Below are positions 274-30,935 of a DNA stretch of 56,470 nt, piece by piece. The translations under genes and the position numbers were made by a program. Numbering within the stretch: the stretch's first letter is position 1; each line of letters starts with the position of its first letter. Source of the DNA: Acidimicrobiia bacterium (GTDB taxonomy: Bacteria > Actinomycetota > Acidimicrobiia > Spongiisociales > ZC4RG35); contig JAICRU010000009.1 of NCBI GenBank assembly GCA_025937235.1, forward strand, positions 1 to 56,470, given 5' to 3'. The notes under the pieces were generated by a model. The model was not told the origin of the DNA. It saw only the letters and a program-made list of their open reading frames with translations, and did not search any database.

Positions 274-1701
274 ATGGCCGGGAATCCCGATAACGGCTGC
301 ATGGGGACGGACCGCTCACTCAGTCCAAAGGCAAGACGCCGAGCGGTGGGTGCCGCCATCGGGGCCACCCTGCTCCTGGTCGTCGTCGTGCTCGGTCTCG
401 CCTTCGCCGATTCGGTGGGGGCATCGAAGGTGGCCGGTAACGCAGAGCAACTGCATCGGGCCAACGCCACCCTGGGCACCGCCGCTCTGACTCGCGCCGC
501 AGTGGTGCAAGCGACGACCTTCACCGAGCTCGCCGCCAGCGATCTCGTCACAGCCGAAGATCTCGACGTTGCCCTATCCGAGGCGGTCGACGCACGCGAT
601 CGGCTCTCCGAGCTCCATGGGCTCTCGACTTCGGATCTGTGGGAGCCTCCACTGACTGACTTCGTTGCCACGATCCACCGAGCCCTGGTCGCCCTCGAGG
701 CCGGAGACTATGACCAGGCCAAGTCGGTGCTCATGGATGATGGTGAGCCGGCCTACACCGAGCTCGTGGACATACTCCAGGACTCGCAGGCCGAGATCCA
801 GGCGCGAATCGACGCCAACACCATGGGATCCCGCCGTACCAATGAGCTGATCCAGTTCTTCCTCATGCTCGCCATCCCCGGCTCGGCGGTCCTCATCTAC
901 CGGTTCATCGCACGGCGGCAGATGCGCGAGCTTCGGCTCAAGGTCGACCTCGAGCTGGAGAAGGAGCGTGAGATCGGCCGCGCCAAGGACGAGTTCATCG
1001 CAGGGCTCTCCCACGAGCTTCGCACCCCGCTCACTTCGATCTACGGATTCGCCGAGATCCTGACCGATGGCGGTGCCGAGGACACGACGACCGCGATCGA
1101 AGTGTCGAAGATCATCGCCAACGAGGCTGCCGAGATGACCCGAATGGTGGACGACCTCCTCGCTGTGGCCCGTCTCGAGAGCACCGGGATCCAGATCGAG
1201 ATGAGCCCGACCCACGTCGCCGAGGTCGTCGACTCCGCCGTGCTCCCATTCGACCGCGCCGGCATGAAGGTGAGCCGGGCTGGTGGCGATGCCGTGGTGT
1301 CCACAGATGCCGCCCGCCTCCGCCACGTGCTGATCAACCTGATCTCCAATGCGGCACGTCACGGAGGGCCCAACGTCGGCATCGAGGTGTCGGTCGGGGA
1401 GGGCGTGGTCGACATCGAAGTATGGGACGACGGGCCGGGAGTTCCCGACGACCGGCTCGAGAACCTGTTCGACACCTTCATCCACAACGGGCGGGCGACG
1501 CTCATGACCGGGACTCTGGGTCTCGGCCTCGGTGTGGCCTCGAGGCTCACTGCCTTGGTCGGTGGGAAGCTTGTCTACCAGCGATTCTCCCAGAAGAGCT
1601 ATTTCATCGTGACTCTTCCCCTGCTCGCCGGGGCGGAACAGTCGCCGGACGCCGACGATGACGTGCCCGTGGCCCATCTCATCCGGGCCATGTCGGCGTG
1701 A
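274..1701 (+). CDS. membrane sensor histidine kinase
   Basis: Orthodox two-component sensor kinase of 475 residues. A first membrane helix at about 25-46 and a second at about 194-213 bracket a mostly helical extracytoplasmic region. The dimerisation/phosphoacceptor helix follows, with the H-box LSHELRTPLTS (His247). The ATP-binding domain has an N-box near Asn359 (LINLISNAARHG), a G1 box WDDGPGVPDD near 385 and a Gly-rich lid GTLGLGLGVASRL. No response regulator is adjacent. The next gene starts inside this gene's stop codon (GTGA), so the two should be co-translated. An ATG nine codons downstream at 301 is an alternative start; neither has a good ribosome site. Confidence 0.9.
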   Translation: MAGNPDNGCMGTDRSLSPKARRRAVGAAIGATLLLVVVVLGLAFADSVGASKVAGNAEQLHRANATLGTAALTRAAVVQATTFTELAASDLVTAEDLDVALSEAVDARDRLSELHGLSTSDLWEPPLTDFVATIHRALVALEAGDYDQAKSVLMDDGEPAYTELVDILQDSQAEIQARIDANTMGSRRTNELIQFFLMLAIPGSAVLIYRFIARRQMRELRLKVDLELEKEREIGRAKDEFIAGLSHELRTPLTSIYGFAEILTDGGAEDTTTAIEVSKIIANEAAEMTRMVDDLLAVARLESTGIQIEMSPTHVAEVVDSAVLPFDRAGMKVSRAGGDAVVSTDAARLRHVLINLISNAARHGGPNVGIEVSVGEGVVDIEVWDDGPGVPDDRLENLFDTFIHNGRATLMTGTLGLGLGVASRLTALVGGKLVYQRFSQKSYFIVTLPLLAGAEQSPDADDDVPVAHLIRAMSA

Positions 1702-25362: not shown

Positions 25363-25998
25363 TCACCTCCCAGACAGATACGCCGGTGGATGGATGGCGT
25401 CTTCGATGACGGCGGCATCCACCTTGCGGTTGTGCGCGTCCCCTATCCGCCCGCCGAGATAGCCGCCGAGCAGGACCGCCGCAGCGAAGACCGCGGACAA
25501 CACGATGGCGGCGGTGGTCACTTCGTCGACGTCGATCTGCGACACCCAGTTGGGCAGATTCGCCACGGCGAAGGCGTTGTACTCCTGACCGACCCAGGCA
25601 CCCAGTGCCCCGAAGATCGCCACCAGGAGCAGGAACCAAAGACCGGCGCCCAGGCCATTCATACTGCCGTCGAAGCGGGCCATTCGCCCGGCGGCGATAC
25701 CACCGAGCAGGAAGGACACGAACGCCACGGCAACGGCCGTGACGGCACCGATCATCTCCACCTCATCGAGGGTGCCTTCTTGATTGATGAGGTTGGTCTG
25801 CAGCTCGATGTTGGCGGCACCGGCCGCAAACAGAGCCCCGAGAAGAACCAGAGCCCCCAGGCCGGTGAGCATCCCCAAGATGGACGCCACCAAATCGGCC
25901 CCTCCAAATCTCTCTCGAGCCGAGACTTCATCTTCCCTGGTCGCCACGTCGGTGGGCTGACCGTGAGCTGTGTATTCGGGTTCTGTGTATTCAGTCAT
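25363..25998 (-). CDS. four-helix membrane protein (YrzE/TIGR04086-like)
   Basis: 211 residues from ATG 25998 (ribosome site ggaggtgg). An acidic soluble N-terminus (about 1-40) precedes four helices near 43-68, 88-110, 122-145 and 170-193. The N-terminal half with FGGADLVASILGMLTGLG and the later FLLGGIAAGRMARFDG match glycine-rich bacterial membrane proteins of unknown role. A SigB/SigF-type promoter lies 28 bases upstream, and the 19-residue peptide follows, so this is a likely member of the stress regulon. Confidence 0.7.
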   Translation of the reverse strand: MTEYTEPEYTAHGQPTDVATREDEVSARERFGGADLVASILGMLTGLGALVLLGALFAAGAANIELQTNLINQEGTLDEVEMIGAVTAVAVAFVSFLLGGIAAGRMARFDGSMNGLGAGLWFLLLVAIFGALGAWVGQEYNAFAVANLPNWVSQIDVDEVTTAAIVLSAVFAAAVLLGGYLGGRIGDAHNRKVDAAVIEDAIHPPAYLSGR

Positions 25999-26025
25999 CG
26001 TTCCACCTCCATGGAACACGGGGAC

Positions 26026-26052
26026 TTACCCCATGGCGGGGCGACAGAAACC
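26026..26052 (-). promoter_or_regulatory. SigB/SigF-type promoter
   Basis: On the minus strand, GGTTT (26052-26048), 16 bases, then GGGTAA (26031-26026), 28 bases before the ATG at 25998. It matches the group-3 stress sigma pattern (GGTTT-N14-17-GGGTA). Confidence 0.6.
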
Positions 26053-26553: not shown

Positions 26554-26579
26554 GGTTTACACCTGCGTCCCCCGGGTAT
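26554..26579 (+). promoter_or_regulatory. SigB/SigF-type promoter of the sigma operon
   Basis: GGTTT (26554-26558), 15 bases, GGGTAT (26574-26579), a near-perfect match to the actinobacterial SigF / Bacillus SigB promoter pattern. It lies 33 bases before the first gene of the operon that ends in a group-3 sigma factor, implying positive autoregulation. Confidence 0.7.
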
Positions 26580-26876: not shown

Positions 26877-27617
26877 ATGAGCCAGTTGGCGATCCCGGCT
26901 CGACGATCCGCAGGAGCGGTGGCACGTCTTGCCGTGGCTACCTGGATCGCCGGCCATCCCCGACTCGACGACGCATTGCTGGCCGTCACCGAGTTGGTGA
27001 ACAATGCTGTGATCCACAGCGGACTTCCCTCGGGATCGAGGTTGACCATCGGTGTCGAGCCAGACGGTGTGGCGCTGCGTCTGACGGTTGCACACGACGG
27101 TATCAGCTTCGATCTACCCGATTCCTTCCACAACTCGACGCGAGCCGAGGCGAGCCGGGGTCTCGCGATTGTGGATAAGATCGCAGATAGTTGGGGTGTC
27201 GACTCCAGCGGAGGCGCCGTTTCCGCTTGGTTCGAGATTGGCCCGAGGAAAAGTGACGCCCGAATCCGGGAAGGGAGTTCGGAGATGGGGCTTGGCCCGC
27301 AACTCGCCCTCGAGACGACTCGCATCGGGGAACAGGACGTGATCGTCGCCACGGGCGAGATCGACCTGGCTTCGGCGCCCCGCGTCGAGCTGGCCCTCGC
27401 GCCGTACATGGGACAGCCCGTGATCCTGGACCTACGCCGAGTCGAGTTCATCGACTCTGCGGGTCTCAAGGTCCTGCTCAGTCAGCGATCGCGTCTCGAG
27501 GAATCGGGAGGAGACCTCAAGCTCGTCGTTGGCCACGGTGCGGTAGGTCGGCTTCTCGAACTGACCGGGGTATCCGGCGCCTTTTCGATCACCGAGTCCA
27601 TCGAAGTCGACGATTGA
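26877..27617 (+). CDS. anti-sigma kinase fused to STAS anti-anti-sigma domain
   Basis: 246 residues joining the two halves of a partner switch. Residues 5-124 are an RsbW-type GHKL ATPase: the N-box TELVNNAVIHS (Asn42/43), a G1-like AHDGISF (Asp74) and the G2-like RGLAIVDKIADSWGV. Residues 140-243 are an RsbV-type STAS domain, with VATGEIDLASAP and the phosphorylatable Ser194 in FIDSAGLKVLL. In known systems these are separate proteins that exchange partners. A single chain implies intramolecular switching or a fixed stoichiometry. It overlaps the sigma gene (TTGA). Confidence 0.85.
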   Translation: MSQLAIPARRSAGAVARLAVATWIAGHPRLDDALLAVTELVNNAVIHSGLPSGSRLTIGVEPDGVALRLTVAHDGISFDLPDSFHNSTRAEASRGLAIVDKIADSWGVDSSGGAVSAWFEIGPRKSDARIREGSSEMGLGPQLALETTRIGEQDVIVATGEIDLASAPRVELALAPYMGQPVILDLRRVEFIDSAGLKVLLSQRSRLEESGGDLKLVVGHGAVGRLLELTGVSGAFSITESIEVDD

Positions 27618-28714
27618 CCCAGGCGAGCGACACCCCTCCCTCGCTGGTTGCCGAGATCCAGCTCCCCGATGGGGCCCGCGCCCCCTTCATCGCACGTCGG
27701 GTGGTGAGGGCCATCATCATCGAGGCCCCCGCCAGCCGGGCCGTCGATGCTGCCCTTCTCGCCAGCGAGGTCGTCACCCTCACGTTCGAGAAGGAGGTGT
27801 CTCAGACGGTCCGCATCGAGGAGATAGGCCGCAGGGCCCGAGTCACCGTGACCAGAAGCGATTCGGTCATTGGCCCTCCGGACGAGATGGTGGCCAGGCT
27901 CCTCGATCGACTTTCTGATGGTTGGGGTCAGGACGGGAAGGCGATCTGGTTCGAGCTCGAGCTGGTTCGGCGTCAGGAGCTGTCCCATCTCTCAGATGAA
28001 GAGCTATTCGAGCTGGCTGGAGTCGATCGGGATGCGCGCGACGAGATCTTCTCCAGATACGAAGGATGGGCTGCCTCGGTCGCCAACCGGTATCGGCGGG
28101 GTGGGGCTCATGCCGACGACGTGGGCCAGGCGGCCTCCATCGCCCTCGTCAACGCGATCGACCGATTCGATCCCGAGTTTGGAGTCAAGTTCACCACCTA
28201 CGCCCGCAAGACGATCATCGGCACCCTGAAGCGCTACCTCAGGGACACCACATGGTCGGTGCGTGTCCCGAGATCGCTCAGCGACACCACGGTGGAGCTC
28301 AATCGAGCTGTGTCCGAGCTCTCCCAGAAGTTGGGAAGGATGCCTCAGGCCGCCGAACTGGCTGAGGAGCTGAATCGTCCGATCGAGGAGATCGAGGACG
28401 CCATGGAGGCAGCTCTCGCCTACAACGCGCGATCGGTCGATGCTCCCTTCTCCGAAGACGACGAGACCACGCTCATGCGAGTCCTCGGCAGCGATGACGA
28501 GCAGTTCGACCTGGCCGACATATGGCATTCCCTGGAGCCGCTCATCTCGGACCTCGACCCCCAGGAGCAGGAGGTGCTCTTCCTCCGGTTCTTCGAGGAT
28601 ATGACCCAGTCAGACATCGCCGAGGTGGTCGGGGTGTCTCAGATGCAGGTCTCCCGCTTGATCAGCAGGGCACTCGACACGCTGCGGGCCCGTCTATCAC
28701 CCGAGTCGACCTGA
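27614..28714 (+). CDS. group-3 sigma factor with N-terminal degenerate anti-sigma-like domain
   Basis: 366 residues. The C-terminal 240 are a SigB/SigF/FliA-type sigma factor: region 2 about 144-212 (FDPEFGVKFTTYARKTIIGTLKRY contains 2.3-2.4), region 3 about 218-275, and region 4 about 305-360 with LDPQEQEVLFLRFFEDMTQSDIA. Residues 24-118 align by eye with the GHKL half of the preceding protein (AVDAALLASEV against RLDDALLAVTEL; SDGWG...IWFEL against ADSWG...AWFEI). They lack the N-box Asn and the G1 Asp-Gly, so ATP binding is probably lost. The only in-frame alternative start is Met92, which would cut the domain. Confidence 0.85.
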   Translation: MTQASDTPPSLVAEIQLPDGARAPFIARRVVRAIIIEAPASRAVDAALLASEVVTLTFEKEVSQTVRIEEIGRRARVTVTRSDSVIGPPDEMVARLLDRLSDGWGQDGKAIWFELELVRRQELSHLSDEELFELAGVDRDARDEIFSRYEGWAASVANRYRRGGAHADDVGQAASIALVNAIDRFDPEFGVKFTTYARKTIIGTLKRYLRDTTWSVRVPRSLSDTTVELNRAVSELSQKLGRMPQAAELAEELNRPIEEIEDAMEAALAYNARSVDAPFSEDDETTLMRVLGSDDEQFDLADIWHSLEPLISDLDPQEQEVLFLRFFEDMTQSDIAEVVGVSQMQVSRLISRALDTLRARLSPEST

Positions 28715-28715
28715 G

Positions 28716-28741
28716 GGTTCGTCGGTATCGGCCGGGGGTAA
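28716..28741 (+). promoter_or_regulatory. candidate SigB/SigF-type promoter
   Basis: GGTTCG (28716-28721), 14 bases, GGGTAA (28736-28741), 24 bases before the ATG at 28766. The -35 is weaker than at 26554. It would place the following membrane-protein gene under the adjacent sigma factor. Confidence 0.4.
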
Positions 28742-28765
28742 AAGGCACCGAAATCGAGAGGTGCC

Positions 28766-29145
28766 ATGAGAACGGATCGAGCTACTGGCCGTGTCGAGAG
28801 GACGACGGCGGTCCGGCAACCCTGGAGCCCGGCGCAGATGCTCACCTGGGGTTCACGGTGGTTATGGCGGTGATCACCCTGCTCTTGTGCCTTGTGTTCC
28901 TCGGCGGTGCCGGCCGGCCGGTCAGCGCTCGCCAGGGGATGACCTCACTTGGTATCGCGCTGCTGGCCTTCGGGATAGTGACCTTCGTCGAGCCAGAAGC
29001 GCTCGGTGTCAACCAGACGAGCGGAGTGGTCTACGCCATTGTGGGCCTCATCCCGGCCATCGCCGGGATCACCTCACCCACGCTGACGAGTCGCGCCGTG
29101 GAACAACACGTGGAAGAGGACGAAGAGGTCATTCACGTCACTTGA
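28766..29145 (+). pseudogene. frameshifted small membrane protein
   Basis: The ATG at 28766 has a ribosome site (gagaggtg) and encodes a polar N-terminus ending QPWSPAQMLT. That frame then hits a stop at 28871-28873. The continuation LGFTVVMAVITLLLCLVFLGGAGRP, three more hydrophobic segments and an acidic tail are in another frame that stays open to 29145. One missing base near 28844-28851 would join them into about 126 residues, like a family of three- or four-helix actinobacterial proteins that begin with WSPAQ. It is either a recent inactivation or a sequencing error. It overlaps the convergent phosphatase gene by 13 bases. Confidence 0.55.
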
Positions 29146-30935
29146 TCTCCGTGCGCCGGGGGGCTCCACGTGACCAGGAGTGCGGCCGCGTCATCGACGC
29201 TGGCTATTTCCTGGATCCCGAACAATTGATCGAGGATTTCCTCCGAGGAGGGGCCGGTCTCGGTGAGTGACTTGGCGATCTCGTCGAGGGCCAGGTCTAT
29301 GTCTCGATCCACGCGCTGCACCAGGCCGTCGGTCATCAGGATCAACACATCCCCCGGGTGGAGGTGCGTCGTCCAGGTGGAGCGAGGGAGGGCCACGCCG
29401 CTGCCCAAAGGAGGGCCCGTTCCCTCCTCTTCGATGCGAACATCCCCGGCAGCGCTTCGAATCAGAAGTGGGATATGGCCCGCTCGGGTGTAGGTGAAAC
29501 GACCCTTCTCGACATCCAGGAGCCCGTAGGTGATGGTGGCAAGCATCCCTGATCCCGAGACTGTTCGGTCGAGAAGGTCGATCTGGGCAGCAGGGTCGAG
29601 GACACGGGCCGTCGTCTGGCCACGAAGGAGATTCCGCAACTGGGCCATGTGAGCCGTCGCGTCCGGACCGTGCCCGGCGACGTCGCCGATCACCACGGCG
29701 AGGTGGTCCTCGGCCTCGTAGATGTCGTACCAGTCGCCTCCCGACCGGGTCCTCACCGAGGCGGGTATGTAGCGAGCGGCGATCTCGATGCTCTCGAGGT
29801 GGGGGAACGAGGGAGTGGCGAACCACTGCCGCAGACCGTCGCTCAGTTGCCCGTACTCGGTGAGCGCCTCCCGCCGCTCCCACGTGGCGAGCACCGCATT
29901 GCTCGCCAGGAGTGTGGAGAGGACGAAGAGAGATCCGAGGAGGATGGAGTTGGTCCAAAGAGCCCGGTCGGCTCCATTTTGTTCTGTGGCCGCGATCTGT
30001 GCGATCCGCAGCACCACTTCAGGGATGAGGGCCTCGACCTGGTCGATCCGCGCTGTGGAGGCCGCGAACCATCGGCGCGCCTCGACCTCCGGCTCCGATG
30101 CACCTGCGACTTCGACTGCCGTGACCATCTCGGCGGTCGTGTCGGCGAGGGGGCCCGTTCGTAGGTCCTCGATGGCGCTGAGCGTGCCGTTCTCCGCGGG
30201 CTCGTCGACCGCCTCCTCGGCCCGGCTCCGGGCCTCGACGAATCCCTGGTTCACGCCGTCGGTCACGACATCGATCTGAAGCACCATCTCTTCGGGCACA
30301 GGCGGGCCGGCGGCCAACGTCTCCTGCATCAAGTGGCGCTGGGTGTGCAGGTCGCCGGCGACGCCCAGGAGCGCGACGGCCAGCCGGCGATGGGTCAGAG
30401 TGGCGAAATCGGACGGCTGCTTGATCAACTCACTAGTGGCGGCAGTGGACAGAGCCACCATCTCGTCATAGAGATCGAAGGTCGACGCGGGGGCCGGCGC
30501 CGTGACTGTCGCCTCTCGGAGGTCCTCCAGCGCGACCTCTGCGACCAACAGGTCCCCGATGGAAGGGGTAGCCGTCACCGGGATCCCATCTCGATGTTCT
30601 GCCCAGGAGTCCCTCAGGGCGTCCATAGCCGCGTCGGTCGCATCGATGGCAGGCTGATACTGAGGATGAGTGAGGAAGAGGGTTGGATCGTCCAGCGTCG
30701 CGGCGAGCGCCCTCTCCCGTTGTAGGGCAGATGTGGCGAGGATGGCATCGTCGGCCACCGCGGCCACCGAAACGGCCTGTGTGGCGTTCGACAGGGTGAC
30801 CTGGGATGCCCGCACCGTGACCACCAGCACCGCCAGGACTCCGAGCACGATCAGGGCGGCGAGAGCACTCGCCACCGGAACGGAGCTCAGACGCTCCCGG
30901 AGCCAACCGGATACCCCTTCTGCCCCGCCACTCAT
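29133..30935 (-). CDS. NIT-domain SpoIIE-type (PP2C) phosphatase
   Basis: 600 residues. A membrane helix at about 21-43 precedes a helical extracytoplasmic domain resembling nitrate/nitrite-sensing NIT domains (ALQRERALAATLDDP near 70). A second helix lies at about 328-350. The cytoplasmic SpoIIE/RsbU phosphatase domain then has RSGGDWYDIYE, IGDVAGHGPDATAHMA, AGHIPLLI, MTDGLVQR and VDDAAALLV. Such enzymes dephosphorylate STAS proteins to release the sigma factor. Its place next to the STAS fusion and sigma genes makes it the natural input to that switch. Confidence 0.85.
   Translation of the reverse strand: MSGGAEGVSGWLRERLSSVPVASALAALIVLGVLAVLVVTVRASQVTLSNATQAVSVAAVADDAILATSALQRERALAATLDDPTLFLTHPQYQPAIDATDAAMDALRDSWAEHRDGIPVTATPSIGDLLVAEVALEDLREATVTAPAPASTFDLYDEMVALSTAATSELIKQPSDFATLTHRRLAVALLGVAGDLHTQRHLMQETLAAGPPVPEEMVLQIDVVTDGVNQGFVEARSRAEEAVDEPAENGTLSAIEDLRTGPLADTTAEMVTAVEVAGASEPEVEARRWFAASTARIDQVEALIPEVVLRIAQIAATEQNGADRALWTNSILLGSLFVLSTLLASNAVLATWERREALTEYGQLSDGLRQWFATPSFPHLESIEIAARYIPASVRTRSGGDWYDIYEAEDHLAVVIGDVAGHGPDATAHMAQLRNLLRGQTTARVLDPAAQIDLLDRTVSGSGMLATITYGLLDVEKGRFTYTRAGHIPLLIRSAAGDVRIEEEGTGPPLGSGVALPRSTWTTHLHPGDVLILMTDGLVQRVDRDIDLALDEIAKSLTETGPSSEEILDQLFGIQEIASVDDAAALLVTWSPPAHGDQVT

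Follow-up and report, generated by a model that had tools for sequence, protein, structure and literature searches.

The window, by which we mean the whole stretch of 56,470 nucleotides that was analysed, comes from a genome of 3.08 Mb whose nearest named relative is the Acidimicrobiia MAG JAICNB010000077.1 (97% identity). It holds a gene in which a degenerate GHKL domain precedes a stress-type sigma factor of the SigB/F/G type, next to genes of a partner switch. Sigma factors are the subunits by which RNA polymerase selects its promoters, and the GHKL fold in question ordinarily inhibits those of this type. The features on which the argument rests are as follows:

26555 to 26579, plus strand: match to a SigF/SigB-type promoter (GTTT-N15-GGGTAT) upstream of the operon, found at the same relative position in the congener L031
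26613 to 26861, plus strand: small gene with DUF7218 and Rho_N domains (Pfam), first of the putative operon and common to all three congeneric genomes
26877 to 27617, plus strand: neighbour gene of 246 aa, a GHKL anti-sigma/kinase fused to a STAS anti-anti-sigma domain (Pfam)
26877 to 27230, plus strand: GHKL half of the neighbour, with the N-box and the G1 Asp-Gly present (PF13581, 35 bits, over the cut-off)
about 27303 to 27605, plus strand: STAS half of the neighbour, with the Ser in DSAG present (PF01740, 50 bits, over the cut-off)
27614 to 28714, plus strand: fused gene of 366 aa, a degenerate GHKL domain and a SigB/F/G-type sigma factor (ORF and profile matches)
27641 to 27967, plus strand: degenerate RsbW/SpoIIAB-type GHKL domain, residues 10-118, with the nucleotide-site residues lost (profile, BLASTP and model evidence)
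27695 to 27697, plus strand: Arg28, aligned with RsbW Arg23 (alpha1); Arg in 16/16 fused domains
27746 to 27748, plus strand: Asp45, aligned with RsbW Asp42 (start of alpha2); acidic in 16/16 fused domains
27767 to 27769, plus strand: Glu52 (N-box Glu), aligned with RsbW Glu49; Glu in 16/16 fused domains
27779 to 27781, plus strand: Leu56, aligned with the N-box Asn (RsbW Asn53)
28028 to 28696, plus strand: sigma regions 2-3-4, residues 139-361 (Pfam/NCBIfam profiles)
29133 to 30935, minus strand: NIT (nitrate/nitrite-sensing) and SpoIIE phosphatase protein, adjoining the fused gene and kept in both congeners

The fused gene starts with a TTG that overlaps the TGA of the gene upstream (ATTGACC), and the two overlapping genes are probably translationally coupled. 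This start is backed by the homologue L004, which has an ATG start and includes the domain; homologues of this kind begin upstream of the domain and not at Met92 or later, so the late start that would have told against the original reading is not what they show. Sigma-70 regions 2, 3 and 4 follow in order in the 366-aa protein, which scores 236.1 bits with TIGR02980 (SigB/SigF/SigG) against a curated cut-off of 234.35. Unlike the sigma-SsdA type discussed below, the sigma protein itself gave no STAS match in the Pfam scan.

The likeness of the N-terminal region to the anti-sigma half encoded upstream had been seen by eye, and it proved genuine: in a single pairwise BLASTP comparison, residues 12-115 of the sigma protein aligned with residues 1-121 of the upstream kinase at 25% identity over 124 columns (E 2e-4). 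Profile searches against GHKL proteins led to the same homology. With hhalign, window-type N-termini aligned with stand-alone GHKL anti-sigma proteins at a probability of 98.9% (E 2.5e-16, 121 collinear columns), whereas column-shuffled controls (n=10) stayed at or below 0.5%. Another GHKL profile, from which the fused domains of the window's clade and of genus g3 had been left out, hit the N-terminus of the window protein at 2.3e-16, while no unfused sigma extension did better than 0.64; the fused proteins are thus all set apart from the unfused extensions. The window's own domain had no match to HATPase_c_2 (PF13581) or any other GHKL family in the Pfam and NCBIfam scans; we nevertheless assign it to the GHKL domains because the N-termini of its fused relatives do match HATPase_c_2, those of L013 and L017 above the Pfam gathering score and those of L014, L016 and L019 with E values of 5e-5 to 7e-4. 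SpoIIAB was the first PDB match of a profile made from 12 fused N-termini (E 0.0014). Two other matches to the window domain, Fapy_DNA_glyco (E 0.05) and PRK13385 (E 0.007), lie far under the cut-off and were discarded as chance. By these comparisons, which are independent of the structure model, the N-terminal domain (residues ~10-118) is homologous to the RsbW/SpoIIAB-type GHKL anti-sigma factors. As to its limits, originally given as residues 24-118, the end at 118 stands and the start moves to strand beta1 near residue 10.

AlphaFold2 run on two near-identical rows produced a poor model (pLDDT 57.5), the Foldseek matches of which (KA1 and others) were not meaningful, and a mixed full-length alignment was not used for folding since its GHKL rows landed on the sigma part. 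With a 24-row alignment, made of the two GHKL domains each from the window and L086 plus GHKL anti-sigma homologues of related loci, the model reached a pLDDT of 85.6 and a pTM of 0.81, with the order E-H-H-E-E-H-E-E. Its best structural match was RsbW (6m37, Z 15.1, rmsd 1.6 over 104 residues), followed by SpoIIAB with sigma-F (1l0o, Z 14.4) and UsfX (8ih8, Z 14.3), with histidine kinases lower, at a Z of about 8. Because true GHKL rows entered its alignment, the model indicates fold compatibility and is no independent proof of the fold; read in this way, the GHKL fold on which the original prediction had made itself depend is what was predicted. RsbW dimerises through alpha1 and beta1 in crystal structures (PMC7340262), and both elements are present in the model of the fused domain.

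The nucleotide site of the window domain is not intact. The N-box Asn (replaced by Leu56) and the G1 Asp-Gly are missing, as had been noticed from the sequence at the outset, and the G2 Gly is missing too. We compared 16 fused domains with 14 stand-alone GHKL domains, the rows of which are related, such that the counts do not represent independent events: the N-box Asn is found in 6/16 fused vs 14/14 stand-alone domains, and the G2 Gly likewise in 6/16 vs 14/14. The G1 Asp is missing in nearly all fused domains (L061 keeps TDPGP) and is variable in the stand-alone ones. With the N-box Asn, G1 and G2 lost, neither ATP binding nor kinase activity is expected of the fused domain. A second group of positions has another history. 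In RsbV-RsbW crystal structures, RsbW Arg23, Asp42 and Glu49 touch RsbV, and Glu49 touches its phospho-acceptor Ser (PMC7340262); the equivalents of all three are retained in the fused domains. Judged by this pattern, the wear of the domain is selective, the ATP-site residues being gone and the STAS-contact equivalents kept, although Arg and Glu at these positions are common to the RsbW family at large, and folding, not docking, may be the reason for their conservation. A comparison of the window with its relative at 97% identity gave a dN/dS of 0.112 for the GHKL half upstream, 0.047 for the fused domain and 0.010 for the sigma part; measured on so few substitutions, constraint is stronger on the dead domain than on its live GHKL neighbour.

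A survey of related genomes, as had been proposed, covered all 138 genomes of the order and found the same fusion in 15 of them, with 16 sigma genes altogether. A GHKL anti-sigma fold joined to a sigma factor is a conserved architecture here. Thirteen of the 15 genomes belong to the window's family (9 genera) and the remaining two, G080 and G306, to two other families. Genome G019 has two fused genes (L040:4661-5779 and L044:5596-6798), with no STAS or stand-alone GHKL gene found near the second (L044), and in G002 the fused gene is split over two contig ends. No other fusion was found in 395 genomes of the class or in 396 of the phylum, where the scan was read at E <= 1e-85, a level insensitive to divergent cases; among 101 long-N-terminus sigma ORFs checked from Streptomyces, Mycobacterium and other members of the phylum, none has the same extension.

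When a tree is drawn from the sigma part alone, the 16 fused rows cluster in one clade that includes just one unfused row, G047; either the fusion arose once and was lost once, or it arose twice. A frameshift artefact in G047 was rejected, as no domain was found in the three upstream forward frames, where a SpoIIE-like gene stands instead. The tree of the GHKL domains is too saturated to tell whether fusion happened once, but it puts the window's fused domain near its fused counterparts and well away from the kinase domain next door. Read as a duplicate of the sigma factor's own inhibitor, the copy of the original wording is not supported: the fused domain is old, groups with other fused domains and is no recent copy of the neighbouring inhibitor, and a recent duplication of the adjacent kinase is ruled out by the 25% identity together with this tree.

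The surroundings of the fused genes are those of a partner switch. Most of the fused loci examined are flanked by STAS genes, usually one or two genes off; most also have a stand-alone GHKL gene next to them, and several a SpoIIE phosphatase. Where the stand-alone GHKL is without a G1 Asp as well, as in several fused relatives, its kinase activity is doubtful. The window's genome has other GHKL proteins elsewhere. In the congener G002, GHKL and STAS occupy separate overlapping ORFs (L033:338-784 and 715-1308, minus strand), while they form one gene in the window, a difference attributable to recent fusion, to fission or to an assembly frameshift. The NIT-SpoIIE protein that adjoins the fused gene is a candidate input for the STAS domain, and the presence of its NIT domain beside the switch suggests a nitrogen-oxide input. 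Just downstream of the sigma gene, a small membrane-protein gene (28715-29145, plus strand) is intact in the congener L031 and seems shortened and frame-disrupted in the window, where it could be a pseudogene or an assembly error.

Degenerate GHKL-like ORFs also occur as stand-alone genes. They lie directly upstream of the fused sigma gene at L035:4920-5336 (minus strand), L036:5831-6202 (plus strand) and L039:4060-4530 (plus strand), and ORFs of the same kind lie directly upstream of an unfused sigma gene at L063:1014-1520 and L065:1339-1761 (both plus strand), the one in L065 being backed by Pfam. All five lack the N-box Asn, G1 and G2 and possibly constitute a separate family of dead anti-sigma proteins. 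These sigma factors are therefore accompanied by degenerate GHKL proteins of two kinds, fused ones and free ones.

The pattern GTTT-N(13-17)-GGGWAW, of the SigF/SigB type, has 3 matches in the window vs 0.36 expected. Besides the match upstream of the operon, an opposite-facing one (26026-26051, minus strand) lies ahead of a gene for a predicted membrane protein of 218 aa (25363-26019, minus strand); with a promoter match at the same relative distance in L031, this gene is a candidate member of the regulon. In 6/15 fused loci the sigma stop codon is followed, 26-45 bp on, by a match, and the next gene encodes a stand-alone GHKL in L038 and L040 and a small membrane protein in L031 and L059. 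A promoter ahead of the stand-alone GHKL would give negative feedback in L038 and L040. In the window, the corresponding promoter of membrane gene 28715-29145 has GTTC, not GTTT. A large SigF-type regulon was not accepted from the strict matches, which number 10 genome-wide vs 6 in a reversed control and so show no clear excess; for the same reason, we regard autoregulation of the sigma operon as plausible and go no further.

Partner switching is, in its textbook form, a circuit in which the sigma factor, the anti-sigma/kinase and the antagonist are separate proteins. As the best explanation for the present locus we tentatively propose, at somewhat less than an even chance, a SigB/SigF-type sigma factor with an on-board, nucleotide-dead RsbW-type GHKL domain that acts as the docking half of the partner switch, phosphorylation taking place in trans. 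The proposal is built on homology, fold compatibility, the residue pattern, purifying selection, the neighbourhood and lineage-wide conservation, from which we infer dimer pairing, cis inhibition, STAS docking, phosphatase input and autoregulation in a scheme that would work as follows. The on-board domain would be one half of an RsbW-type dimer, with either the GHKL half of the neighbour or another fused molecule, and would hold its own sigma domain inactive. Since the on-board domain has lost ATP binding, the kinase step on the STAS antagonist would fall to the intact GHKL domain of the neighbour, acting in trans. Once dephosphorylated by a phosphatase of the SpoIIE type, in all probability the NIT-SpoIIE protein close by, STAS would dock on the retained face of the on-board domain and free the sigma domain, and this in turn would transcribe its own operon. 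We count in support of this scheme the residue pattern of the 16 fused domains (Arg in 16, an acidic residue in 16 and Glu in 16 vs the N-box Asn in 6 and the G2 Gly in 6), the SigF-type promoter matches at this locus and past the sigma stop in relatives, and, by analogy, the split of roles between RsbW1 and RsbW2, the binding of RsbW1 to RsbW3, and the precedent of sigma-SsdA. Against it count the family-wide occurrence of the Arg and Glu, the doubtful kinase activity of stand-alone GHKL proteins in several fused relatives and the lack of a clear excess of strict promoter matches. In addition, G047, of the same sigma clade, lacks the domain, so the sigma factor can work without it; and, given the other GHKL proteins in the genome, the true partner could be encoded elsewhere.

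The tether originally envisaged, in which the dead domain does no more than pair with the active GHKL through alpha1/beta1, keeps the inhibitor attached and leaves STAS to act on the active half alone, is to us unlikely, if a serious competitor. It draws on the dimerisation of RsbW-type proteins through alpha1/beta1, both of them in the model (PMC7340262), on the ability of RsbW paralogues to associate, as RsbW1 and RsbW3 do (PMC7693655), and on the overlap and probable translational coupling of the two genes; by itself, however, it leaves unexplained why all 16 domains retain the acidic residue and the Glu on the face that contacts STAS while the ATP site decays. The residue pattern fits a retained STAS-docking face at least as well as pairing with the active kinase. 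An improbable reading is that the fused domain, like RsbW3, forms an unproductive heterodimer with the anti-sigma GHKL and makes the sigma factor resist inhibition. M. smegmatis RsbW3 binds RsbW1, not SigF, and its overexpression raises SigF activity (PMC7693655), yet a decoy permanently attached would largely uncouple the sigma factor from the switch, the genes of which are kept beside it. Quite improbable as well is an old fusion that serves folding, stability or RNA-polymerase binding with no part in switching: G047 does without the domain, and variation between genera is larger in the domain than in the sigma part, but a dN/dS of 0.047, presence in 16 sigma genes and a residue loss that is patterned, not uniform, speak against a mere appendage. 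That the N-terminal region is not GHKL and its alignment a product of chance, as the missing Pfam match of the window domain and the poor two-row AlphaFold model without an anti-sigma match might have it, can be practically dismissed in view of the hhalign, GHKL-profile and BLASTP results, the 24-row model with its structural matches, and the relatives that score above Pfam's cut-off.

The closest precedent is sigma-SsdA of Actinoplanes missouriensis, which has a C-terminal STAS domain and a partner, SipA, that joins STAS and RsbW-like domains; SipA binds the STAS domain of sigma-SsdA and not the sigma domain, and according to its authors no sigma factor carrying an antagonist domain had been known before sigma-SsdA (PMC10733313). 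In both cases a SigB/F/G-type sigma factor is fused to a partner-switch domain and lies next to a two-domain RsbW-like and STAS protein. They differ in that the fused domain is a C-terminal STAS (antagonist) there and an N-terminal degenerate GHKL (anti-sigma) here, and in that the order is STAS-RsbW in SipA and GHKL-STAS in the window's neighbour. The window's locus and sigma-SsdA/SipA are thus nearly mirror images of each other. With RsbW, SpoIIAB and UsfX the N-terminal domain shares the predicted fold (Z 13-15) and the equivalents of RsbW Arg23, Asp42 and Glu49, whereas here it is attached to the sigma factor and has lost the N-box Asn, G1 and G2. In M. smegmatis, RsbW1 is the anti-sigma factor, RsbW2 the kinase and RsbW3 an antagonist that binds RsbW1 (PMC7693655); roles are likewise divided over RsbW paralogues that associate, although all are separate proteins and none of them is attached to a sigma factor. 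In Pseudomonas putida, IutY also unites sigma and anti-sigma functions in one polypeptide, but its sigma factor is of the ECF type, its anti-sigma domain is periplasmic and released by proteolysis, and the mechanism is unrelated (PMC5411451). Rv1364c of M. tuberculosis (PDB 3ke6) is a multidomain partner-switch fusion with an RsbW domain, the structure of which matches our model (Z 13.4), whereas its PDB title names RsbU and RsbW domains and no sigma factor.

In the open-access literature, to which our search was confined, we found no sigma factor described as carrying a GHKL domain, and within that scope the architecture is apparently new, as had been supposed. What we describe seems to be a lineage-specific variant, not described before, of the well-known SigB/SigF partner-switch control in uncultured Acidimicrobiia. 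It is possible, though we would not lean towards it, that the whole amounts to a lineage-wide rewiring of the SigB/SigF switch in this order, in which the dead anti-sigma domain of the sigma factor has turned into a STAS receptor and the kinase has been outsourced to the GHKL-STAS neighbour. Sigma binding and kinase activity are joined in RsbW; in a natural sigma factor with a dead anti-sigma domain permanently attached, the two would be separated. The fused domain shows which surface residues evolution keeps once ATP binding is unneeded, and it makes testable which contacts alone suffice for STAS-driven release. Together with sigma-SsdA, it suggests that the fusion of switch domains to sigma factors arose more than once in actinomycetes.
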